This document shows, one piece after another, positions 1 to 10,200 of a stretch of 36,895 bases of DNA. The stretch lies in IMG/VR virus record IMGVR_UViG_3300044646_001461, positions 1 through 36,895 of that record. The stretch is one strand, 5' to 3'. A program made the translations under genes and the position numbers. The notes beneath the pieces are model-generated. The model made no database searches. It worked only from the letters and a program-made list of their open reading frames with translations, and was not told where the DNA came from. The stretch comes from a virus. Every line of letters begins with the position of its first letter. Positions within the stretch are counted from its first letter, which is position 1.

Positions 1-811
1 ACGCAGAGACCCCTTTGCATAAAATTTTCTGCTCACCCAAATCAGTGGGTGTCATAGGGGGGGCCTCCGAAAATCCAGACCCCCTCCCCCCCTCCTGATC
101 GACCGCCACGGCCTCGACCTCGACCGGTTCGACGGCGCATCCCGTCCCCGAAGTCGTCCCCGCGCCCTGTATCCTATCTACAAAAGCCCCTAAAACTTCT
201 GATTGCAAATCAGAGACCAGCCCGGCAGCGCTCCCTGTTCCGTCCAATCCGCCCGATCCGTCCGGCCCCTTTTGTCCCGACCCGCTCCCGTGTAAACCGG
301 TTGGCACTACCTCAGCTTCGAGCACCGGCAAGCTGGCCAGCATCTCAGAAAGTTTGTCCTGGTTGACCTCTACCCGCTCCACTCGGGCGGTAGCCTCACC
401 GCTGAGGAGCTGGAGCTTGTCCACCATCACGGCCGCGACGATGGCCGCATCTTTGGCATTGTTAATGGAAGGCACCAACTCAACGACCCGCTCCACCGAA
501 AGGCGGGCCGCAGTCCTCACATTCTTGAGTAACTCCTTTTTCTGCTGCTCTATAGGAAATTGCTCCCGATCTTGGACGGCCGCCACCGTGTTCCTGCTCA
601 CTCCCAACGCCCGAGCCATGGCCGACATACTCAGCCCCTCGGCGCTCATGCGGCAGATCGCCCGGTAAACCTCCGGGCGACGGGCAAGCAACCGCTCACC
701 GCTAAACTCTCCCGTGGCTTCGAGCTTCTCAGCCCCTATTTCTGCTTCCGAAAATAAAAAAGGCGCGGCAGACTCTGAGGCGTCGGCTTTCATCAAAGGG
801 GTGGATTCCAT
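1..811 (-). CDS. HTH DNA-binding protein, partial at window edge (crosses the circular junction)
   Basis: The frame is open from ATG at 811 to base 1 (270 codons) with no stop. If base 1 is joined to base 36895, it adds FELSLLR and stops at 36875-36873, giving 277 aa. A helix-turn-helix is visible at about residues 60-79 (LSMSAMARALGVSRNTVAAV), followed by an alpha-helical segment with a regular V/L pattern and a Gly/Ser/Asp-rich, probably disordered C-terminal half (GSGSGQKGPDGSGGLDG). An HTH plus helical oligomerisation segment is seen in phage regulators and in some small terminase subunits, so either role is possible. The first gene upstream ends 24 bases away and no clear ribosome site precedes 811; ATG 793 and ATG 649 are alternative starts. 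The reading frame itself is solid; the function is not. Confidence 0.75.
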   Translation of the reverse strand, partial: MESTPLMKADASESAAPFLFSEAEIGAEKLEATGEFSGERLLARRPEVYRAICRMSAEGLSMSAMARALGVSRNTVAAVQDREQFPIEQQKKELLKNVRTAARLSVERVVELVPSINNAKDAAIVAAVMVDKLQLLSGEATARVERVEVNQDKLSEMLASLPVLEAEVVPTGLHGSGSGQKGPDGSGGLDGTGSAAGLVSDLQSEVLGAFVDRIQGAGTTSGTGCAVEPVEVEAVAVDQEGGRGSGFSEAPPMTPTDLGEQKILCKGVSA

Positions 812-835
812 AAAAAAACAAAAAAGCGGCGGCGA

Positions 836-1060
836 TCAGAGGGAGGCGATCAACGGCCGAACCCCACGCCGAACCGGCAGGGGGCGCACCGGCTCCCGGC
901 ATTTATCTAGGACACGCTGCACCGATGATTCAGGGATCAGCACCCGGCCACCGAACCGCACAACCTCCAACTCACCCGCAGCGACACGCCGCGAAATGGT
1001 CATCAGCGAAACCCCGAGGAGCCCGGCCAACTGCGCCGGTGAATAGTGTTGCTCGATCAT
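836..1060 (-). CDS. Small excisionase/MerR-like HTH protein
   Basis: This 74-aa protein begins MIEQHYSPAQLAGLLGVS, continues MTISRRVAAGELEVVRFGGR and ends with a basic tail. The pattern (helix-turn-helix, 'G' turn, short beta wing, then 'LIPESSVQRVL') is that of the HTH_17/excisionase family of winged-helix proteins. The start at 1060 is preferred over a longer frame because GGAGG lies 8 bases upstream and because ATG overlaps the stop of the preceding 35-aa gene (ATGA). Being in a phage early cluster, it may be the recombination directionality factor for the integrase at 6112, or a transcriptional regulator; the sequence does not decide which. Confidence 0.8.
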   Translation of the reverse strand: MIEQHYSPAQLAGLLGVSLMTISRRVAAGELEVVRFGGRVLIPESSVQRVLDKCREPVRPLPVRRGVRPLIASL

Positions 1061-1164
1061 TCGCCCATCCTCCAGGCTACGAGAGCCAAAAAAGCCGCTG
1101 GCCCGAGAGCACAAAGCGCCTCCCAGGTCCATGTAATGAAATGAATCGCATCAGGGGTGATCAT
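1057..1164 (-). CDS. 35-aa membrane peptide
   Basis: This very short gene runs from ATG at 1164 to TGA at 1059-1057. It overlaps the 48-aa gene upstream by 4 bases (ATGA) and the HTH gene downstream by 4 bases (ATGA). It encodes a short polar start, WTWEALCALGPAAFLALVAW as a probable membrane helix (residues 12-31), and an RMGE tail. The double overlap and the single strongly hydrophobic segment are the reasons for calling it. GGAGG, the ribosome site of the next gene, lies inside its last codons. Function is unknown; candidates are a membrane regulator or small toxin-like peptide, neither supported by a recognisable motif. Confidence 0.6.
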   Translation of the reverse strand: MITPDAIHFITWTWEALCALGPAAFLALVAWRMGE

Positions 1165-1307
1165 TTGTCCACCTCCACGGAAAACGGCCTAAGTCCGAAA
1201 ATTTCAAAAAAACGGCGGCGTGCTGCCTCCCGGCTCGACGCTCTTACATAGTCGCCAAACGGACCGCGCAGCGGATCCATCGCCCGGCACAAAAAAAGGC
1301 GGCTCAT
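1161..1307 (-). CDS. 48-aa basic protein of unknown function
   Basis: It starts at ATG 1307, inside the stop of the RHH gene (ATGA), and ends at TGA 1163-1161, inside the start of the 35-aa gene (ATGA). The product (MSRLFLCRAMDPLRGPF..., ending FGLRPFSVEVDK) is rich in arginine and phenylalanine, with an RR-rich helix in the middle (SREAARRRFFEIF). No family was recognised. The call rests on the exact 4-base overlaps on both sides, a pattern repeated along the whole leftward operon. Confidence 0.55.
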   Translation of the reverse strand: MSRLFLCRAMDPLRGPFGDYVRASSREAARRRFFEIFGLRPFSVEVDK

Positions 1308-1456
1308 ATCTGGCCCTCCTGAGCTTTGGCTTTTGCGACAGCTTTCACCAGCAACTGCCGCACGATGGCGGCCCGGCTCACCATCTGGCTTTTGGCCAGC
1401 TCAGTGATGATTTCATCAACCTCTGCGGGGATTTTGGTTTGAACGATTTTTGTCAT
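1304..1456 (-). CDS. Ribbon-helix-helix regulator (50 aa), first gene of the leftward operon
   Basis: The 50-aa product is a minimal RHH (CopG/Arc/MetJ-type) protein. A beta strand (KIVQTKIP, residues 3-10) is followed by helix A (AEVDEIITELAK, 11-22) and helix B (SRAAIVRQLLVKAVAKA, 27-43). RHH proteins dimerise and place the paired strands in the major groove of palindromic operators. It is the first gene leftward of the control region and lies 33 bases from the palindrome at 1490-1512. It faces a second RHH gene on the other strand (1561-1881). No convincing Shine-Dalgarno precedes ATG 1456. It probably controls its own operon, the rightward operon, or both. Confidence 0.85.
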   Translation of the reverse strand: MTKIVQTKIPAEVDEIITELAKSQMVSRAAIVRQLLVKAVAKAKAQEGQI

Positions 1457-1489
1457 ATCAAGTGGGGTGATTTACTCACCTCTGAAAAG

Positions 1490-1512
1490 TTCTATACAGA
1501 TTCTGTATAGAA
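1490..1512. promoter_or_regulatory. Perfect palindromic operator in the divergent control region
   Basis: TTCTATACAG (1490-1499), a 3-base spacer ATT, then CTGTATAGAA (1503-1512) form a perfect 10-bp inverted repeat in the 104-base interval between two divergently transcribed RHH genes. Each arm contains TATAGA, which reads as a possible -10 element outward in either direction, so a bound dimer or tetramer could cover both promoters. The rightward leader is extremely A/T-rich (1511-1540). The operator role is inferred from symmetry and position. Confidence 0.75.
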
Positions 1513-1560
1513 ACAAAACAAAAAAATTTATTTTGTTTGAGAGCTGGTTTAGATTGCGAC

Positions 1561-1881
1561 ATGCCAAAAAAGAAAAAACCAAACGGCCCAGGCAAAAACC
1601 GAATTGTGGCGAGCACTACCGTTGATTTGCAAACCAGCGCAGAGATTGACCGGCTGGCCGCCGCAGGCGGATTGACGCGCAGCCAGTGGGCCCGCGAAGC
1701 CCTTACCGAAATGGCAAACGAAGCCACAATTTACGGCATCACCAGGAAAACAGAAGTCACCAAAGTATCGGGAAAAGCAAATCCCCCAGACTCTGTTGGT
1801 GTCAAGACCCTGAGAGCGTCCGAGAGTTTCGATTCTACGCCCTCAACAGTTACGACCAAAAACTCCCACCCGGCTGGATAG
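1561..1881 (+). CDS. Ribbon-helix-helix repressor-like protein (106 aa), first gene of the rightward operon
   Basis: A lysine-rich N-terminus (MPKKKKPNGPGKNR) leads into an RHH domain at residues 15-53: a beta strand around VASTTVDLQ, helix TSAEIDRLAAAG, and helix LTRSQWAREALTEMA. A roughly 50-residue polar tail follows. ATG 1561 is chosen because the frame upstream offers only a TTG at 1537. The gene is divergent from a second, shorter RHH gene, with a perfect palindrome 49 bases upstream. As the first gene of the rightward (accessory plus integrase) side it is the best candidate for a lysogeny regulator, given that no CI-like repressor is present. Confidence 0.8.
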   Translation: MPKKKKPNGPGKNRIVASTTVDLQTSAEIDRLAAAGGLTRSQWAREALTEMANEATIYGITRKTEVTKVSGKANPPDSVGVKTLRASESFDSTPSTVTTKNSHPAG

Positions 1882-1903
1882 GCCAGATCCACGACCTCAC
1901 ATC

Positions 1904-2248
1904 ATGGACCCATCAGGAATAACGGCGGTAGAGTTTGTAAATAGTCCATTTTGGGGAATGCCTTACGCCCTTTGCCTCCTTGCGATGGCCGCCGCTTGCT
2001 GGGCGGGCTGCTACCATATCGCCCAAGAGATTTTCAAAACCAAACCCGCCAAAATTGTTGCTTTGCTTATCCTGCTTTTCATGTGCGCGGTCGTCGCGTT
2101 TGTGAATCCTGCAACCCCGGATCGCGTTAAAAACGCCATGGCAAAGCAGGATCTTATAGAACTCATTTGGGATTGGAAACGCGGCGATCGCGTTGCTGTT
2201 GAAAAAAGGCTTTCTGATCCAAAAATACAAAAATTTTACGAGGAATGA
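1904..2248 (+). CDS. Small two-pass inner-membrane protein
   Basis: The 114-aa product has two hydrophobic segments, about residues 18-40 (around ALCLLAMAAACWAGCYHIA) and 49-67 (IVALLILLFMCAVVAFV), followed by a charged C-terminal region. No enzymatic motif is visible. It sits 22 bases after the RHH gene and overlaps the lipoprotein gene by 4 bases (ATGA), so the two are probably translated together. A membrane protein plus lipoprotein pair next to a lysogeny regulator is a common layout for superinfection-exclusion or host-envelope-modifying genes; that role is inference only. Confidence 0.75.
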   Translation: MDPSGITAVEFVNSPFWGMPYALCLLAMAAACWAGCYHIAQEIFKTKPAKIVALLILLFMCAVVAFVNPATPDRVKNAMAKQDLIELIWDWKRGDRVAVEKRLSDPKIQKFYEE

Positions 2249-2676
2249 AAAATTTCATCAAACCCGCATCAATCCTAGCACTAGCGGCCGCTCTATGCTC
2301 CTGCGCCAGCCCTGAGCCTGAGCCAATCTGGCGGCCCGCTCCGCTTCCCTCGCCTACTCCCATGGAAATTCTCATTGAGACAAGCCCGGCGGGCGGCCTT
2401 GTGGATTGGAACGGCGATGTTTTAGGCGTTGCACCCGTCACCCTCACCATCACGCCTCGTCTTGTTGCTGGAGGCCGCCCCGCATGGCCAGACACCGGAA
2501 ATTTATTGCACATATTCCGCTCCCGTTGGCCCAACGGAAAAACAGCCTTTGAGCACTTCCGAAAAGACGCCTTACCACCTCAACGCGTCGCCATTATTTG
2601 CCCCGCCGCTCGAAATCCCCTCCTTGACTCCCTCCGCGCCGACGCGAAAACTCTCACGCAAAAGAAAACACCGTGA
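2245..2676 (+). CDS. Secreted lipoprotein with a PEGA-like domain
   Basis: The N-terminus (MKNFIKPASILALAAALCSC) is a lipoprotein signal peptide with the lipobox Cys at residue 20, followed by a Pro-rich linker. Residues 42-70 (IETSPAGGLVDWNGDVLG, then APVTLTI) match the PEGA pattern (S-P-x-G-x-V-x-x-N-G ... L-G-x-x-P), a small beta domain of surface and envelope proteins. The C-terminal half is unassigned. It overlaps the preceding membrane-protein gene (ATGA). It is expected to be anchored in the envelope, possibly as a lysogenic-conversion factor; no function can be proven. Confidence 0.75.
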   Translation: MKNFIKPASILALAAALCSCASPEPEPIWRPAPLPSPTPMEILIETSPAGGLVDWNGDVLGVAPVTLTITPRLVAGGRPAWPDTGNLLHIFRSRWPNGKTAFEHFRKDALPPQRVAIICPAARNPLLDSLRADAKTLTQKKTP

Positions 2677-2876
2677 CCCGCAGAGCCCCATTTCATCAGC
2701 CTCCGCGAGTGTCAAGCACTTTCTGAAAAAATATTTTCAAAAAAAATAAAAATAATTCTTGCACTCCATTCTGAACCTCCGTAGGTTCATTTCCGCAGGC
2801 CACCAACGGCCCGCCCGAGTCGGTCGGCAACCGGCAACAAAAAAACCGCGTCAGACGGTATCTGACACAGAAACAA
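2677..2876 (+). promoter_or_regulatory. 200-base intergenic region with a possible promoter and inverted repeat
   Basis: The gap holds a run of A residues (2740-2754), a candidate promoter TTGCAC (2759-2764) with a 17-base spacer to TAGGTT (2782-2787), and an inverted repeat TGAACCT (2772-2778) / AGGTTCA (2783-2789) that overlaps the putative -10. It ends with the leader hairpin described separately. A frame can be extended from 2759 into the DUF932 gene, but its composition is non-protein-like. The promoter call is weak and made by eye. Confidence 0.35.
2850..2866 (+). other. Leader stem-loop, copy 1 (covaries with copy 2 at 5355-5371)
   Basis: GTCAGA, loop CGGTA, TCTGAC form a perfect 6-bp hairpin whose last base is 10 bases before the ATG of the 57-aa gene at 2877. 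Before it lies ACCGC and after it ACAGAAAC. The same layout (ACCCGC, hairpin, ACCGAAACC, ATG) precedes the gene at 5381. Two of the six pairs differ between the copies and both differences are compensated (T-A to C-G, A-T to G-C), which argues for a conserved RNA structure. Confidence 0.6.
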
Positions 2877-3050
2877 ATGATCCAAAAAATCGAAAAAGCC
2901 ATTGCAGTAGCACTCGCCACTGCATCCATCCTCAGCCTCGCCCTCGGCGTTGCTTTCACCCTCACCCACGGCCCCGCCGCATTTATTGGCGGCCTCGCCC
3001 TCTTCCTGGCATTCGCCGGATTCGCCGCCACCTTCGACGCCACCATCTAA
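2877..3050 (+). CDS. 57-aa membrane protein
   Basis: The product begins MIQKIEKAIAVALATASILS and has two hydrophobic stretches: residues about 9-28 (ending LALGVAF) and 35-51 (AAFIGGLALFLAFAGFA), separated by THGP. It fits a two-helix hairpin membrane protein. It is preceded by the covarying leader hairpin and followed 14 bases later by the DUF932 gene. No family was recognised; a holin-like fold is possible but a separate lysis cassette is present at 21.4-22.4 kb. Confidence 0.65.
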   Translation: MIQKIEKAIAVALATASILSLALGVAFTLTHGPAAFIGGLALFLAFAGFAATFDATI

Positions 3051-3064
3051 GAAAGCCCCATATT

Positions 3065-3931
3065 ATGACAATCACACGATTTGCCCGCACCCGCAGCAAC
3101 GGCGCAGTAAACTACACCAGCCGCAACGGCTCCATCCCATTCGACCAACTCCGCCAGATCGCCCCTTCGGTGTTCGCCGAGCAGGCCCACAACAGCCGGT
3201 CAGCAGCTTACAAATACATCCCAACGAGCGAAATTCTTGCGGGCCTTGCCCGTGAAGGCTTCCGCCCTTACGCAGTCATGCAAGGCGGCAGCAGGGAGGA
3301 AGAAAAACGCGGGTTCACAAAGCACCTCATCCGCCTCCGCCACGACAGCCAGCCCCTCGAAGTCGGCGGCACGCACAACGAGATCGTCCTCCTCAACTCG
3401 CATGACGGCACCTCCTCATACCGCCTCATGGCCGGAGTTTTCCGCCTCATTTGCGGCAACGGGATGGTAGTAGCTCAAAACCTCATCGACGACATCCGCA
3501 TTCCCCACAAGGGAAACATCGAAGGCCAAGTCATCGAAGGCTGCATTAGCATCCTCGACCGGCTCCCCGAGGTTTCCGAGAGCATCCGCGAAATGGACGC
3601 CCTCCGACTCACCCCAGGCGAGCAGCAAGCATTTGCCCGCGCCGCCCTGGTCGCCAGATATGACGACCCCGAGAAGCCCGCACCCGTCAAAGCCGAGCAG
3701 ATCCTTACCCTCCGCCGCCATGAGGACGCAGCCCCGACCATGTGGAACACATTAAACGCAGTCCAAGAAAACCTCGTCCGTGGCGGCCTTGGCTATGTCC
3801 AACGCAACGAAAACGGCCGCCTCGTAGCCCGCCGCCGCACCCGCGAAATCGGAGGCATCGACCAAAACACCAACATCAACCGCGCCCTGTGGGCACTGGC
3901 TGAGGAAATGAAAAAACTGAAAACCGCCTAA
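3065..3931 (+). CDS. DUF932-family phage/plasmid protein
   Basis: The 288-aa product has the typical order of the DUF932 (phage/plasmid TIGR03299-like) family: an N-terminal region with 'YKYIPTSEILAGLAREGF' (residues about 48-66), a basic strand with 'KHLIRLRH', 'NEIVLLNSHDGTSSYRLMAG' (about 104-123), and the hallmark 'FRLICGNGMV' (about 125-134). A helical C-terminus follows. The family is common on plasmids and phages; its biochemical role is not established. ATG 3065 is chosen because the upstream extension is out of character and overlaps the real 57-aa gene. A stem-loop follows at 3941. Confidence 0.85.
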   Translation: MTITRFARTRSNGAVNYTSRNGSIPFDQLRQIAPSVFAEQAHNSRSAAYKYIPTSEILAGLAREGFRPYAVMQGGSREEEKRGFTKHLIRLRHDSQPLEVGGTHNEIVLLNSHDGTSSYRLMAGVFRLICGNGMVVAQNLIDDIRIPHKGNIEGQVIEGCISILDRLPEVSESIREMDALRLTPGEQQAFARAALVARYDDPEKPAPVKAEQILTLRRHEDAAPTMWNTLNAVQENLVRGGLGYVQRNENGRLVARRRTREIGGIDQNTNINRALWALAEEMKKLKTA

Positions 3932-3940
3932 TCTCAACCC

Positions 3941-3970
3941 GGCGAGGGTCCAATCCCCTCGCCACCTTTA
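3941..3970 (+). terminator. Stem-loop after the DUF932 gene, probable intrinsic terminator or attenuator
   Basis: GGCGAGGG (3941-3948) and CCCTCGCC (3956-3963) form a perfect 8-bp stem with a 7-base loop, followed by ACCTTTATTT. The U-rich tail is short and interrupted and the next start codon is at 3974, so this may attenuate rather than end transcription. Confidence 0.55.
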
Positions 3971-3973
3971 TTT

Positions 3974-4297
3974 ATGAATAAAAACGATGAACTTTGGATT
4001 TTGCGCGATTGCGCAGACAAACTCGGGTCAGATTCTTATTGCGGACCATGGCTGCAGGATCAAATCCCTTACATTGAACGCGACATACGAGGCGATATGT
4101 TTCCCCAGTTAGGATGGGCAGAAACACGCAAAATGGAGCAAAACGCGATCTCACTTGCAAAAGAGCAAGCGGCGCGAATTGTAAAAGATGCCGAGGAGCA
4201 GGCCGCAGTAATTAGAAAAAACTCCGAAAAATACGCCGCGAGCGTTCGAAAAGCGTTGGCTCATGATTTGGAAAAAGCCCTTCTTCTTATACAATGA
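3974..4297 (+). CDS. Coiled-coil protein of unknown function
   Basis: The 107-aa product begins MNKNDELWILRDCADKLGSD. Its second half is a long amphipathic, Lys/Glu/Ala-rich helix (KEQAARIVKDAEEQAAVIRK), typical of a coiled coil. No family was recognised. The gene starts 10 bases after the stem-loop at 3941-3963 and overlaps the next gene by 4 bases (ATGA), starting a four-gene overlapping set. Confidence 0.7.
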   Translation: MNKNDELWILRDCADKLGSDSYCGPWLQDQIPYIERDIRGDMFPQLGWAETRKMEQNAISLAKEQAARIVKDAEEQAAVIRKNSEKYAASVRKALAHDLEKALLLIQ

Positions 4298-4749
4298 GCA
4301 CCACAGCACTACCAGCCTGCCACCAAAACAGCCCGCAGCACGCCGCCTATGTCGCCCGAGTCGAAGAGCTCGAGGCCGAAGGCTGCGACACCAGCGACGC
4401 CCAAGGCATTGCTGATATGGAATTCGACGGACTATTGACACAAACCAAAAAACCAACCAAACCAACGCACAAAATGAAAACACTATCACCACAAGAACAA
4501 AACGAGATCGAAAACCTCTCTTACCTAACGCCGCCGGAAGACCAAGGCCAGCCACACGACGCAGGGCAGGCAATATGGGGAGAACTTGCAGTTCTCCGCC
4601 GGTGGGACTGGGACGACAACGGCGGAAGACTTTCGAACACCCGCCACGAATACGAGGTTTACGCATGGGAAGGCGAAGACGAAGACCCCGCCTTCCAACG
4701 CCTAACAACCGGCAAACTGATCTCAAAATTTATCGTTCCAACAAAATGA
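4294..4749 (+). CDS. Acidic phage protein of unknown function
   Basis: The 151-aa product has an N-terminal region with several His/Cys residues (ALPACHQNSPQHAAYVARVE), a Lys/Thr/Pro linker (QTKKPTKPTHK, about residues 51-61), and a C-terminal region from Met62 rich in Trp, Asp and Glu (RRWDWDDNGG, YAWEGEDED). The linker suggests two modules; a separate internal start at Met62 is possible. It overlaps its neighbours at both ends by ATGA. No function is recognised. Confidence 0.65.
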   Translation: MSTTALPACHQNSPQHAAYVARVEELEAEGCDTSDAQGIADMEFDGLLTQTKKPTKPTHKMKTLSPQEQNEIENLSYLTPPEDQGQPHDAGQAIWGELAVLRRWDWDDNGGRLSNTRHEYEVYAWEGEDEDPAFQRLTTGKLISKFIVPTK

Positions 4750-5126
4750 AAAAATACACAACAGCAGGCTGCCGAGCAGTAACGGCAGAAAACATGAGCG
4801 AGGCAGCCGGAATCTTTGCGGACCGCATGGCCCGCAGAAAATACGGCAAAACCGGTTATGCCCGCACCTGCAACTTGGAATCCTGGAGCCAGGATCAAAC
4901 GCTCGGCGAATACAGCGCATTCATCGGCTACACTCCCGCAGGCAAACACAACCGAGGCACAACGGTTGGAGGGAACATCCGCTTCAGCGTTTACGCAGAG
5001 GAGGCCGTCGAATCTTCATTTGAAACGGAGCTTAAACGCCAGCTCATTGAAAAAGGCGGCATCAACCCCGAATGGGCAAAAACTCATCTGATAATTGATA
5101 AATCCGAACCGCTAATAATCGAATGA
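4746..5126 (+). CDS. Conserved-looking phage protein of unknown function
   Basis: The 126-aa product begins MKKYTTAGCRAVTAENMSEA and contains 'FADRMARRKYGKTGYARTC' and an aromatic segment 'YSAFIGY'. The start at ATG 4746 is set by the ATGA overlap with the preceding stop; a longer open frame upstream has no support. The middle (GGNIRFSVYAEE) looks like beta strands. It overlaps the 64-aa gene downstream (ATGA). No function is recognised. Confidence 0.7.
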   Translation: MKKYTTAGCRAVTAENMSEAAGIFADRMARRKYGKTGYARTCNLESWSQDQTLGEYSAFIGYTPAGKHNRGTTVGGNIRFSVYAEEAVESSFETELKRQLIEKGGINPEWAKTHLIIDKSEPLIIE

Positions 5127-5317
5127 CCCCCGAGCAACTCAACCGCGCCGCCTCCTCGATGGAGGCGGCGCTTGCCCGTCTCGACATCGAGCCCGGCATC
5201 ACCACGGCGGCCGAGCTGGCCGCCGACGACGCCGAAATCCTGCCCGCCCTGGTGGATGGCCAGCCGGTAATTACCCCCGAGGCTAATTCCGGCATGTCTG
5301 AAGGGCGCAAAATTTAA
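5123..5317 (+). CDS. Small acidic protein (64 aa)
   Basis: It starts in the ATGA overlap with the preceding gene and encodes MTPEQLNRAASSMEAALARL followed by an acidic, Ala-rich region (AAELAADDAEILPALVDGQP). It is predicted to be mostly helical. No family was recognised. It is the last gene of the overlapping set before a 63-base gap holding the second leader hairpin. Confidence 0.65.
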   Translation: MTPEQLNRAASSMEAALARLDIEPGITTAAELAADDAEILPALVDGQPVITPEANSGMSEGRKI

Positions 5318-5354
5318 ACCCAAACTCACCTCACCCCATAAAAACTCAACCCGC

Positions 5355-5371
5355 GCCGGACGGCATCCGGC
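5355..5371 (+). other. Leader stem-loop, copy 2 (covaries with copy 1 at 2850-2866)
   Basis: GCCGGA, loop CGGCA, TCCGGC form a perfect 6-bp hairpin ending 9 bases before the ATG at 5381. The flanks ACCCGC and ACCGAAACC match those of copy 1. Stem pairs 2 and 4 differ from copy 1 with compensation on the opposite side, and one loop base differs. Confidence 0.6.
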
Positions 5372-5380
5372 ACCGAAACC

Positions 5381-5554
5381 ATGGAAACCCTCAAACTCTA
5401 CAACGCCTTGGCGCTGCTCACCGACACCGCAAAACTGGTCTTGAGCGACATTAAAAACCCAGACACCCTCGCCGCCAACCTCGCCTACCTCGCCCAAGCC
5501 ATGCGGTCCGCCGAGAAAATCCTTTTGAAACATCCCATCCCATTTAATCAATGA
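5381..5554 (+). CDS. 57-aa helical protein
   Basis: The product begins METLKLYNALALLTDTAKLV and continues as a mostly helical chain (AANLAYLAQAMRSAEKILLK). It is soluble-looking, unlike the membrane protein that shares its leader hairpin. It is preceded by the hairpin at 5355-5371 and overlaps the next gene by ATGA. No family was recognised. Confidence 0.65.
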   Translation: METLKLYNALALLTDTAKLVLSDIKNPDTLAANLAYLAQAMRSAEKILLKHPIPFNQ

Positions 5555-5787
5555 CACCCGACATCGACACACACGGCAACGCCAACAACCGCCACAACGC
5601 CCGCAACCCCGAGCTGGAAAACATGACCGCCAAAATCCAATTCTTCTGCTGGCCCGAAGAAAAGAGCGCCTGGATCCGCGCCGCCCACCCCCAACGCCTC
5701 AGCGCCTGGATCCGCCAACAACTCAACCAAGCCACCGGCCGCCCCGAAGAACCCACCGACGAAGAACGCCGCCAAATCAAAATGTGA
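5551..5787 (+). CDS. Small phage protein (78 aa), possible DNA- or RNA-associated
   Basis: It starts in the ATGA overlap with the 57-aa gene. After an Asn/His-rich N-terminus comes 'MTAKIQFFCWPEEKSAW' and 'HPQRLSAWIRQQLNQATG', which resembles the strand-helix layout of very small regulators but lacks a clear RHH pattern. It is the last gene before the attP region. Function is unknown. Confidence 0.6.
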   Translation: MTPDIDTHGNANNRHNARNPELENMTAKIQFFCWPEEKSAWIRAAHPQRLSAWIRQQLNQATGRPEEPTDEERRQIKM

Positions 5788-6111
5788 CGCCAAAAACCCA
5801 AAAATCAAGCGTAACTTATTGAATGAAAACTTCTAACCACACTCAGAAGGTTAAACCCCACCCGTCCCCAAAGTTGTCCCCCTTTCCCATAACCCCATGA
5901 TCACCAATAAAACAATGACTACCTACGGATCAGAAGGTTTGAGGTTCGACTCCTCATGGCTGCACTTCCCCTCCCTCTACAAACCCGCCTCCAGCCTGCT
6001 TCTGCGGGCTTTTGAGAAAATGCGCGTTAATGATGTTATTGGATGTTTTGCCATGTTTATTGCGTCCGAGTTGACCCCAAAGTTGTCCCCGCTTAAGGTT
6101 GTCCCCGCGAT
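5788..6111. promoter_or_regulatory. attP region: integrase arm-site candidates flanking a tRNA core
   Basis: This 324-base gap holds no convincing gene. CCCCAAAGTTGTCCCC occurs twice as a perfect 16-base direct repeat (5866-5881 and 6075-6090), and a third partial copy AAGGTTGTCCCC lies at 6095-6106, just before the integrase start. They flank the tRNA-derived core at 5923-5964. TCAGAAGGTT also occurs twice (5843-5852 and 5930-5939). This is the classic arrangement of arm-type integrase sites around an attP core. Confidence 0.75.
5923..5964 (+). other. attP core: 3' half of a tRNA-Arg(ACG) gene
   Basis: The sequence reads as anticodon loop CTACGGA (5923-5929, anticodon ACG), 3' anticodon stem TCAGA, variable AGGTT, T arm TGAGG-TTCGACT-CCTCA (5940-5956), acceptor TGGCTGC and discriminator A (5964). 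The 5' half is absent: TCTGA, needed to close the anticodon stem, is not upstream. It is therefore the part a phage carries to restore the host tRNA on integration. Phage genes on both sides show this is attP, not attL or attR. Confidence 0.8.
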
Positions 6112-7242
6112 ATGAGACGGCATAACGAGGTTTCGGTTTATTGGCGGGAGGAGGCGGGGCGGCATCCGGCTTGGTATTACCGCGTGCAGATTGATGGCCA
6201 GCCCAAGAAGTTTTCCACCGGCGTGACTAAGCACACGGAGGCAGGGCGCAGGGAGGCGATGCGGGCGGCTGAGAAGCTGGCGGCGGCGCTGCGCTCGAAG
6301 GATGAGCACCAGCTTGCGGCGGTCGTGAAGCGGCCGGGCTACGCGAAGTGCGGGGAGGTGGCGGCGATTTACAAGGAGCATGGCCCCGAGAAATCGGCGA
6401 CGAAAAGTTTGAGCCGGTTTGCGGCTTTTGTGCGCGAGGTGACGGGGCGGCAGGATTGGGAAGAGCAGAGCACGCACCAGGTGCTGACAGCAGCGGCGCT
6501 GCGAGGATGGATTGAGGTGCAGAAAAAGACCAAGACAAAGAAAAAAGGAGCGGAAGATGAATTGCGTTCAGAGAGCGGGATTCACACGGATGTTCAGACG
6601 ATCAAGAGCATCGTGGCCCGCAAAAGATTTTACCTATTCAAGGATCTCAAGCTGCCAAATCTGGAGGAGTTCTGGAGCGTCGCGGGCGTTGCTGCTCCAG
6701 ACCAGGCTTATGATCCGGTGGACCGTGAGGTGATGCGTGCTATGGATCGGGCGGCGCGGATCCCGCTGCGGCGTCAAAATAAGCGCGTATGGGCCATCTA
6801 CTGGCTAATGCGCAAGGCTGGGCTGCGTAACAGTGAGGTGGAGGTTTTGGAGTGGAGCTGGGTTGAGTCCAAAGATAACCAAGTTCACATAGCCATGCTG
6901 CGGCGGGCAAATTGGAAATCCAAAAACAAAAAATACGGGCGCGTGCCGTTCAACCCCCGCCTTATGAGATTGATTCGCGCCGCGCTTGGAGATGAGGGCG
7001 ATTTTGTGATCCCGAGGACAAGCGACGCGGACGCCTACAACCTCACGCATTACGATATTAACAAATTTGTGCGGCGGTTTATTCCCGACGGCAGCAAGGG
7101 GGCTTACAACCTGCGGAAAGAATTTGGCTCTGCCATTGTCGAGCGCAATGGGATCGAAACCGCTGCGAAGCTCCTGCGGGATAGCATCGCCGTGGTGGAG
7201 GCCCACTACTTCGGCCTACTGGACCGCCCGAAGCCGCTGTAA
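6112..7242 (+). CDS. int: Tyrosine integrase (site-specific recombinase)
   Basis: The 376-aa protein has an N-terminal arm-binding-like region, a core-binding helical region (about 85-150) and a C-terminal catalytic domain. Box I is GLRNSEVEVLEW with R239; the second Arg is R335 in YNLRKEFGS; the nucleophile is Y366 in EAHYFG. Spacings fit the family: R239 to R335, R335+22, then +9 to the Tyr. The two positions normally His are Y332 (YNLR for HxxR) and D357 (LLRD for LGH). It lies next to the tRNA-Arg attP core and so catalyses integration into the host tRNA-Arg(ACG) gene. It is convergent with the late operon. No strong ribosome site is visible before ATG 6112. Confidence 0.95.
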   Translation: MRRHNEVSVYWREEAGRHPAWYYRVQIDGQPKKFSTGVTKHTEAGRREAMRAAEKLAAALRSKDEHQLAAVVKRPGYAKCGEVAAIYKEHGPEKSATKSLSRFAAFVREVTGRQDWEEQSTHQVLTAAALRGWIEVQKKTKTKKKGAEDELRSESGIHTDVQTIKSIVARKRFYLFKDLKLPNLEEFWSVAGVAAPDQAYDPVDREVMRAMDRAARIPLRRQNKRVWAIYWLMRKAGLRNSEVEVLEWSWVESKDNQVHIAMLRRANWKSKNKKYGRVPFNPRLMRLIRAALGDEGDFVIPRTSDADAYNLTHYDINKFVRRFIPDGSKGAYNLRKEFGSAIVERNGIETAAKLLRDSIAVVEAHYFGLLDRPKPL

Positions 7243-7244
7243 TT

Positions 7245-7276
7245 CCCCTCGGCGCTGGAAAAATCTGGCCGAGGGG
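7245..7276. terminator. Hairpin between convergent integrase and late operon
   Basis: CCCCTCGGC (7245-7253) and GCCGAGGGG (7268-7276) form a perfect 9-bp stem with a 14-base loop, between the integrase stop at 7242 and the end of the giant virion gene at 7288. No good T tract follows on the plus strand; reading leftward, TGATTTTT precedes rather than follows the stem. It probably insulates both units. Confidence 0.6.
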
Positions 7277-7287
7277 GTGTGCAAAAA

Positions 7288-10200
7288 TCACGGCCCGTCT
7301 GCTGCGACCATTTCGGCTTGGGTGGCGGCGTCGGCGGCTATGGCAGCTTCGTATTCCTGCTTGGCGCGGGTCTTGAGGTCGGGGCGGGCGAGGAGGATGC
7401 GGTATTTGGCGGCGGTGCTAGCTTTCTCCAGGGCGCGGGTCATGGCTTTGGCTTTGATGTCCCATGTGGCTTTGTCGTAGCGGGGATCGGAGAGGACGAA
7501 CTTCTCCAGCGCGGCGATGCTGAGGGCTCCCATGTCTTTCTGCATGGCGCTGATCTCTTCGGAGGTGAGGCGGACTTTGACGCCTTCGACGGTGAACTCC
7601 GGTTTGACTTGGTTCGGGATGGCTCCGGCCTCGGCGGTGTATTTGTAAACCTTGCTCATTTCGGTGAGCGCTGGGCTCCCTTTGATGTAGGAGACCATCG
7701 AGGGGTTGAAGAGGACATTGAAGAGCGTGTTGCTGTCCTTGGCCCAACGCTCGATGGGTTGCCCGGTGATGTCGTATTTCTGCGGGAGGGTTTGGCTTTG
7801 GCCGGGGAGTTGCGCCTTGAGTTCGTTGATGAATTGCCGAGCTGGGGAGCTGTCGCGGGTTTCGCGGACGGCGTTGTCGGTGAGTTGCATCCATTGCCTT
7901 GCGGCGGTGGGGATGAAGGTGCCGGGGGCGTCGGCGGCGGTTTTGAGGAGTGCGCCAGGGATGTTGTCGTAGCCGACATCGCGGGCGAATTGATTGAGGC
8001 CGGTGAGAAGCGGCTGCTCGACGAGGGAGTTCATGGCTCCGGTGGCTGCGCCGCCTGCGTAGGCGAGCCAGTTGAGGCCGGTGGCGGCGAGGCTTTGCTT
8101 CTTACCTTGGAGGATGTCTTGCTTGATGGCTTCTTGATTCTCGCGGGAGTAGGCCCCCATGGCGACGCCGATGGAGAGAGGCTGCGCCCAATCGTAGCCG
8201 ATTACCTTGTCGTCGCGCTGCTGTTTCTGAGGGGTCCAGAAGTTGCCGGTCATGAGGGCACGCTTGAGCGCATCGACATTGAGTTTGTAGGATCCCCAGC
8301 CCATGGCGCGGTTGAGGTTGCGTTTGTCTTCGTCTTTCGAGTCGCTGCCAGCGGAGATGATACCGAGGTGGGCGAGCCAGTAGCCGGTGGCGACGAGGCC
8401 GGTGGTGCCTACGAGGGCGCGGGAGAAGGAGTCGGTAAAGGCTTTTTGGTCGAACTCGCGGGAGTTGGAGAGCATCGGCGCGAGGCTTTGGTAGGCGGTG
8501 TTGATGAATCCAAGCGGGGAAAATTCCACGGCGCGGGTGAGGATTGAGCCGGGGACTTGGGTGAATTTCATTAGGAGCGAGCCAATGCCCCAGCGTTTAT
8601 TGCGATTAAGGGCGCGTCGGAGATCGCTGAGTGTGCGGCTGGCGGCGTTGTCGTCTTGGTAAATGGCGCGGCCAGCATCCATGCGGGCGGCTGTGACCAT
8701 ATCGGGATCAGGGGCAAGCATGGGGTTGCCATTTGCGGCGGCAGCTTTCATGCGGGTGTCGAGGCTGGCGCGGAAGGCGGATTCGTAAAAGCCACGGTCT
8801 GTGATGGAGAGGACGAGGCCAAGAGTAGACTCCAAATGACGAAACCCAGGAGCGGTGAAGGTTGGCCCGCTGAGGGCGGAGATGTCGGAGGCGTTGTATT
8901 TGCCCGAGGATTGGAGGCGGCCCAGGCGGACCAGGGTATCGACGCCCTCGGCGATGCTTCCGATGCGGCCACGGCCTTCGGAGCGGGCGAAGTCGTAGCC
9001 TGCTTTGATGTCGCCTACTCCGGCTCCGAGACCCATGATGCGCTCACCGAGTGAAAGCCCTGTGCGGGTGCGCTCGCCGGTGCCCAGGGAAACCAAGGCA
9101 TCCATCGGCACGGAGACGGCATCAGCGGCAAGATCGGCGGTTGCCATGAGGGTATTGCCTATGACATTTCGCCCGACAGTCTTTGTGTTGAGCAGCATGG
9201 CGATGGTCTGGATGGTGTCCACTTTGTCGAGGAAGCCCGGCGGCATAAAGTCGCGGTAAACGACATCGAGGGCTTCGGCGGCCTTGACGAGCTTGATGCG
9301 GGGGTCGGTGGCTTTCTCGTGCTGGGCGAGGATGCGGCGGACCTTGGCGCTGTGCTCGGCGCTCCAGTGTGGGATGCCAAGCATCTTGGCCATGCCTGCG
9401 TGCAGGCTGGCATCAGTGAGCTTGCCTTCGCGGTTGAGGCGGATGAGGGAGCCGAGCTTGGATTTATCCAGGCGGCGGTCGGAATCGGCGGTGGCGAGGA
9501 GGTCTTGGAGGACTTTGGCGCGGGTCTCCTGCGTGGTCTTGAGGAAATCGCGGACGATGCTGCCGGAGATGCGGGCGGCTCCTTTGTCGGAGAGACCTTG
9601 GCCGGTCAGGATGGAAGAGGTCGCGGCTTGAGCGGCAAGCGGCGTAGGTGCGCCGAGGATCGCTTCGCGGATGGCGATGTTGACTTGGACGGCATCGACT
9701 CCGGCGGGGAGCGAGGATTTGATGAGGTCTTTATTGCCGACGATGGCTGCGGTGGTGGAGTCGCGGCGGAGTTTGTCCACCTCGCCTTGCAACTGACCGG
9801 CCTCGGTGATCTTGGCTTGGATATCGGCCTTCTGCTTGTCGGTCTTGGCGGGCTTGGTGGCGGCGGCTTGGAGTTGGCTCTGAGCGAAAAGCTCGATGCC
9901 TTGCGGCCCGAGGCGTCCAATCATCGAGAGGGCTTGGATGGCGCGGCCTTGGTCGGTGGCGCGGGTGGCCATCATGTTGGCGATGGAGGCGGCATCGGCA
10001 TGGCGGTTGCGGTTTTGGAGTTGCGCCATGAGTTCCATGCCGGTGGCGTAATCCTCGGCGGTAGGCTGCCAGCCTTTGATGTCGGGCTTGCCCATGAGGT
10101 CGGTGAATGCGGTGTCGATGCTGCCTGCGGAGTCGATGCGGGCTCGGGCGTTGGCGAGGGTTTGGGCGTTCGAGACAGGATCGTAGTCGAGCGAGGTGAG

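Follow-up and report, generated by a model that had tools for sequence, protein, structure and literature searches.

On balance, we think it probable that Verrucomicrobia phage immunity modules carry a lysogeny-side RHH repressor in two forms, made by way of a conserved -1 frameshift, and that a shared tail is set on RHH domains whose exchange, which takes in their operators and divergent partners as well, happens at the slippery site or close to it. The frameshift tail surprises us more than the switch does. The module is described here for the window, by which we mean the whole stretch of 36,895 nucleotides of IMG/VR virus record IMGVR_UViG_3300044646_001461, which is about 4 kb shorter than its longest relatives.

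Divergent RHH genes at the head of two gene arms

Two small genes, RHH-A (1304–1456, minus strand, 50 aa) and RHH-B (1561–1881, plus strand, with an ATG at 1561 and a zero-frame product of 106 aa), point away from each other across a gap of 104 bp (1457–1560). The divergent RHH pair that a preliminary description had placed around this gap is real, and its coordinates are exact. With the Pfam RHH_1 profile (cut-off 20.5 bits), RHH-A scores above the cut-off at 23.2 bits and RHH-B below it at 15.9 bits (E = 0.012). A profile of RHH-B aligns with the RHH antitoxin Rv0298, which has a known structure and is the nearest solved sequence (E = 0.014), and a monomer model, of low confidence (pLDDT 53), places two helices at the right positions; on its own evidence, membership of RHH-B in the RHH superfamily is supported but not proven. 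Searches with RHH-A gave 24 viral loci with RHH-A itself and 27 with the RHH-A alignment, and in every relative examined a divergent RHH-B lies about 100 nt away. No annotated phage matched the locus at the DNA level. The RHH-A alignment matched no bacterial genome, whereas a search with the terminase did match one.

In the relatives, the order from the RHH-A side is p48, an HTH_17 gene, a further HTH gene and, further on, the terminase and a capsid gene of the SU10_MCP type, while the RHH-B arm runs the other way to the integrase. The terminase of a 40.3-kb relative is divided between the two contig ends, so that the map looks circularly permuted, with the structural genes downstream of RHH-A. 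In the window, RHH-A heads the lytic and structural arm. The conserved p48 gene (1161–1307, minus strand, 48 aa, beginning MSRLFLCRAMDPLRGPFGDYVRAS...) overlaps the end of RHH-A and gave no match in a family search; it is kept behind the RHH-A position even where the RHH pair has been replaced. It is followed in the lytic arm by the gene for an HTH_17/excisionase-like protein (836–1060, minus strand) and by that for a conserved HTH protein (2–811, minus strand), which is cut by the end of the window. Several very different versions of the HTH_17 protein occupy the same place in the relatives, which suggests another swap of specificity.

On the other side, a predicted small lipoprotein (2245–2676, plus strand) comes after the RHH-B arm in most relatives, and its counterpart adjoins the host junction in the L081 prophage. 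The arm ends with a tyrosine integrase (6112–7242, plus strand). Between the arm and int, where integration would cut int off from the transcript of the repressor, lies an attP core of 44 bp (5923–5966, plus strand). The core is conserved in relatives, and all of it matches exactly the tRNA-Arg(ACG) gene of a Verrucomicrobiota genome in its 3' half, from the anticodon loop onward. An Rfam search of positions 1–7500 returned nothing. The MAG named Chthoniobacter flavus contains an integrated relative, which adjoins clear host genes (LytB, SMC, cyclopropane synthase and a glycosyltransferase). Its end resembles, by eye, the 3' half of a tRNA, and ARAGORN reported no intact tRNA there. The phages of this family are temperate phages of Verrucomicrobia.

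The absence of a CI-, Cro- or C2-like repressor elsewhere, claimed earlier, holds across nine records: in the window and eight relatives there is no HTH_3 match above cut-off and no Peptidase_S24, and the sub-threshold HTH matches fall in the non-RHH HTH genes at 836–1060 and 2–811. Together with the gene order, the attP/tRNA match and the integrated relative, this makes the proposed lysis-lysogeny switch likely. We regard it as unlikely that the RHH pair instead controls some function other than lysogeny, such as an accessory operon, plasmid-like partition or copy control, or a toxin-antitoxin system with p48. RHH proteins often act as antitoxins or as regulators of the ParG/omega or CopG kind, an antitoxin is the closest sequence of known structure to RHH-B, and p48 overlaps RHH-A; yet p48 has no family match, each of the two main arms begins with an RHH gene (one arm leads to the terminase, the other to attP and int), there is one pair of sites and there are no arrays, and a relative sits integrated in host DNA.

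The operator palindrome and its candidate reader

The gap contains the palindrome TTCTATACAGATTCTGTATAGAA (1490–1512), which is single and perfect, as had been described. The 10-bp arms and 3-bp spacer first given for it were too modest, since the arms are 11 bp long and the spacer is 1 nt. It occurs once in the window; the chance expectation for such repeats has a mean of 0 in Markov sequences of the window's length, and P is about 3.5e-4 for 104 bp of the local composition. An operator of the same kind occupies the same place in most of the 27 related loci, and several classes can be distinguished: TTCTATACAGAWTCTGTATAGAA, the window type; RTTCTAATTAGAAC with a second, weak site after it; [TG]CTTATAAGAATTCTTATAAGA and TCTTAAAAGAATTCTTTTAAGA; TTTCCAATTGGAAA; and TTCTCACGAGAAAMCYACGAGAA. 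Common to most of them is a 10-bp TCTNNNNAGA unit, of which clear double copies start 11–12 bp apart, so that the window's palindrome would represent a pair of sites for RHH dimers, spaced by about one turn of the helix. The best reading of it is a tandem of two TCTNNNNAGA sites of about 10 bp, TCTATACAGA and TCTGTATAGA, 11 bp apart, which are candidate dimer sites for RHH-B. The pair of TCTNNNNAGA sites begins a few nt past a conserved T-tract and TTGTT, and plausibly lies over the core promoter of RHH-A; a sigma-70 consensus scan of the gap gave no promoter match.

A second inverted repeat, GGTGA-N5-TCACC (1466–1480), lies upstream of RHH-A. It resembles a perfect TGGGGTGATCACCCCA found upstream of RHH-B in L096 and L100, which have unrelated RHH pairs, and for this reason its probable reader is a factor that these phages or their host have in common, not one particular RHH protein. 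A promoter-like element with an inverted repeat, TTGACA-[CT]CCGCATAAACACTA...GCGG, is conserved 5' of RHH-B in L095, L096, L105, L115 and L116, whose RHH proteins belong to other families.

Variation among the relatives bears on which of the two proteins reads the operator. In L008 and L009, RHH-A is 100% identical to that of the window, yet the operator is GTTCTAATTAGAAC, of class 2, where the window type is class 1. Before the heptamer described below, six residues set RHH-B of L008 (class 2) apart from that of L012 (class 1). Two of the differences, N14G and V17N, fall just before or in the beta-strand; in a hand alignment based on established knowledge of the RHH fold, V17 corresponds to R4 of CopG. 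Position 17 of RHH-B is V in all class 1 loci, N in all of class 2, and I or L in class 3. The partial matrix correlation of RHH-B with the operator, given RHH-A, is 0.60 (reached in 0 of 2000 permutations), and that of RHH-A with the operator, given RHH-B, is 0.35 (permutation p 0.0025), the p-values being indicative only because the loci share descent. Since RHH-A stays constant beside a changed operator with which RHH-B co-varies, RHH-B is, on this comparative evidence, the main candidate reader; RHH-A may touch the operator too, given its correlation of 0.35.

The preliminary description had envisaged RHH-A and RHH-B competing for one palindrome, as CI and Cro compete for OR. Both are RHH proteins with one strong palindrome beside them, and the residual correlation of RHH-A (0.35, p 0.0025) is in keeping with such a contest, but RHH-A, including its predicted beta-strand IVQTK, is constant across class 1 and class 2 operators whereas RHH-B changes, and we consider competition improbable. 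Of that proposal, the switch is supported and the competition is not: the operator sequence follows RHH-B, and an identical RHH-A stands beside a different palindrome. A lysis-lysogeny switch with RHH-B, and not both proteins, acting on the palindrome is likely.

A slippery heptamer and a -1-frame tail in RHH-B

The clue to a frameshift came from the prophage in the MAG, where an RHH-B-like gene ends in the peptide of the window, which the window has in another reading frame; the divergent RHH pair of that prophage is not matched by the RHH-A profile. Near its end, RHH-B of the window carries the slippery heptamer G GGA AAA (1770–1776, plus strand; codons TCG GGA AAA), after which the -1 frame codes for a tail (1776–1922, plus strand), SKSPRLCWCQDPESVREFRFYALNSYDQKLPPGWIGQIHDLTSWTHQE, followed by a stop. 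The motif G GGA AA[A/C] is present near the end of RHH-B in all 27 window-type loci that cover the site and is followed by a -1-frame tail in 25 of them; L030 and L076 keep the heptamer and have no tail. The consensus of the tail is LRxWxLNSxxxxLPPGWIxxIHDLTS.

A search with the tail returned 65 contigs. Among the 66 contigs found by tail alone, GGGAAAN stands in register for entry to the -1 frame in 51 and off-register in none. Among 45 distinct genes, which were chosen for the heptamer and have it by construction, different residues precede Gly-Lys/Asn (S, T, Q, K, P, E, M or L), and elsewhere in those genes only 12–35% of such codons end in G. A variable residue that nevertheless keeps a G-ending codon, together with the unselected register counts (51/66), points to selection on the heptamer at the nucleotide level. 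Within one closely related group, codon changes in the tail are 108 synonymous and 40 nonsynonymous when read in the -1 frame, versus 6 and 124 in the zero frame. A second closer group gives 36/18 versus 0/21, and the most divergent group shows a weak contrast. Judged by these changes, the -1-frame tail is under purifying selection.

No clear internal Shine-Dalgarno sequence and no stable downstream hairpin was found as a stimulator at the heptamer. Folding of the 65 nt downstream showed nothing unusual in 20 representatives (z -1.0 to 1.6), and a hairpin in this role is not supported. Transcriptional slippage was also rejected, as the runs at the heptamer are of only 3–5 A, and runs of 3–5 are too short for it. 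RHH-B does have a conserved heptamer of the X_XXY_YYZ type in register with a conserved -1 ORF, as is characteristic of genes with programmed -1 frameshifting. It is very unlikely that the tail is a small gene with a start of its own or a remnant in decay, and not a frameshift product of RHH-B: in 16 of the 45 genes an ATG, GTG or TTG does lie in the stretch from the preceding -1-frame stop to the core of the tail, there is no obvious stimulator, and L030 and L076 have lost the tail, but 29 of the 45 have no such codon for a separate start of the tail, some have a -1 frame that opens only 2–4 codons before the heptamer, that frame is under purifying selection, and the heptamer, when present, is always in register.

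Read as an extension of RHH-B, the tail is modular. Many RHH domains that are unrelated to one another carry it, in each case in the -1 frame, and most tail-bearing loci again have, by eye, a divergent RHH partner. The window and L010 have RHH-B in common and different tails, and the window's tail is common to loci with unrelated RHH domains; comparison of these loci indicates that tails and RHH domains are exchanged between them. The 15 of 66 contigs without GGGAAAN comprise one with A AAA AAA, most of the others having TCTTCAAGCAAACCGTC or close variants, and the tail is still in the -1 frame. In L099, L111, L117, L118, L120, L121 and L126, TCTTCAAGCAAACCGTC is conserved in place of GGGAAAN.

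The structural model of the tail is small and moderately confident (pLDDT 73), with one main helix. Annotated phages and plasmids do not have the tail, which has no convincing match in Pfam, PHROG or the PDB, and among 388 Verrucomicrobiota genomes convincing matches occur only in the Chthoniobacter MAG; the tail is phage-borne. Two weak matches from the phylum-wide search (L151 and L152) were not borne out on reading, and a third, L150, lies on the strand opposite to the overlapping L081 tail. A variable tandem repeat coding for SHQPPAT often comes after the tail (L010, L014–L017 and L025–L030) and in some loci runs in frame into the downstream lipoprotein.

The proposed switch and known systems

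We favour, with some reserve, a model in which the locus is the immunity and early-control region of a temperate podovirus-like Verrucomicrobia phage, with RHH-B as a repressor in two forms. Dimers of RHH-B would bind the two tandem 10-bp sites, located within what we presume to be the core promoter of RHH-A, and would thereby shut off the arm of RHH-A, p48, HTH_17, HTH and onward to the terminase and structural genes. RHH-A would be a Cro-like regulator of the lytic side that acts mainly elsewhere, or weakly on the palindrome. Most ribosomes would complete the 106-aa RHH-B, and a fraction would slip by -1 at G GGA AAA and add the tail of about 45 aa, which might serve in multimerisation, in contact with RNA polymerase, or in sensing or turnover. 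If this is correct, the choice of lysis or lysogeny in a whole group of uncultured phages is made by RHH proteins alone, with a repressor tuned by recoding at a fixed slippery site, and a regulator, not a structural protein, gains a modular domain by frameshifting. The natural swaps of operator and beta-strand would then provide material for an RHH recognition code, and immunity groups would be predictable from sequence.

The arrangement shares with lambda CI/Cro the divergent regulators at the head of opposite arms, the shared operator region and an integrase on the lysogeny arm. It differs in that the regulators have the RHH and not the HTH/S24 fold, there is one operator region, and the palindrome tracks one protein. 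A departure from the classical lambda model, as first suggested, is borne out, but P22 immI (divergent mnt and arc) and SSV1 F55 are precedents for it. The mnt and arc genes of P22 are laid out divergently. Like the pair in the window, they are two small divergent RHH regulators of unequal size with operators between them, and are part of lysis-lysogeny control. P22 differs in also having the immC C2/Cro switch and the antirepressor Ant, immI being secondary, whereas in the window we found no C2-like repressor and no antirepressor, the RHH pair heads both main arms, and RHH-B has a -1 tail. The secondary control by the RHH repressors Mnt and Arc and the antirepressor has been described (PMC7549136, PMC11016777). 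No P22-like ant follows the lytic-side RHH gene, after which come the genes for p48, HTH_17 and the HTH protein. In SSV1, the RHH protein F55 is a lysogeny repressor that binds tandem sites in early promoters (PMC5569661). The likeness lies in an RHH protein on the lysogeny side and in the tandem sites; the differences are that SSV1 is an archaeal virus with a single RHH regulator and tandem direct repeats, and that no frameshift tail is reported.

Frameshift extensions of a similar kind are known from other proteins. Phages add Ig-like domains by frameshifting (PMC5009743), and G_GG.A_AA.A and G_GG.A_AA.C are used by IS elements, although their shiftiness in E. coli is no more than moderate or weak (PMC4066793). 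Phage Ig-like domains, lambda G-GT and IS elements share with RHH-B a heptamer of the G_GGA_AA(A/C/G) type and a -1 extension on different proteins (PMC5009743, PMC4066793), but their carriers are structural, tail-assembly or transposition proteins, whereas the carrier in the window is a DNA-binding regulator. Recoding in a phage switch gene or a mobile-element regulator also has parallels: cro of phage A2 shifts in E. coli, to a shorter product, and the shift seems irrelevant in its own host, while a +1 shift joins two genes in FseA of an ICE (PMC5009743). No description of either makes it an RHH protein that carries a shared tail. Phage switches built on RHH proteins have precedents (P22 immI, SSV1 F55); for a modular tail added to such a regulator by frameshifting, we found none in the open-access library that was searched.
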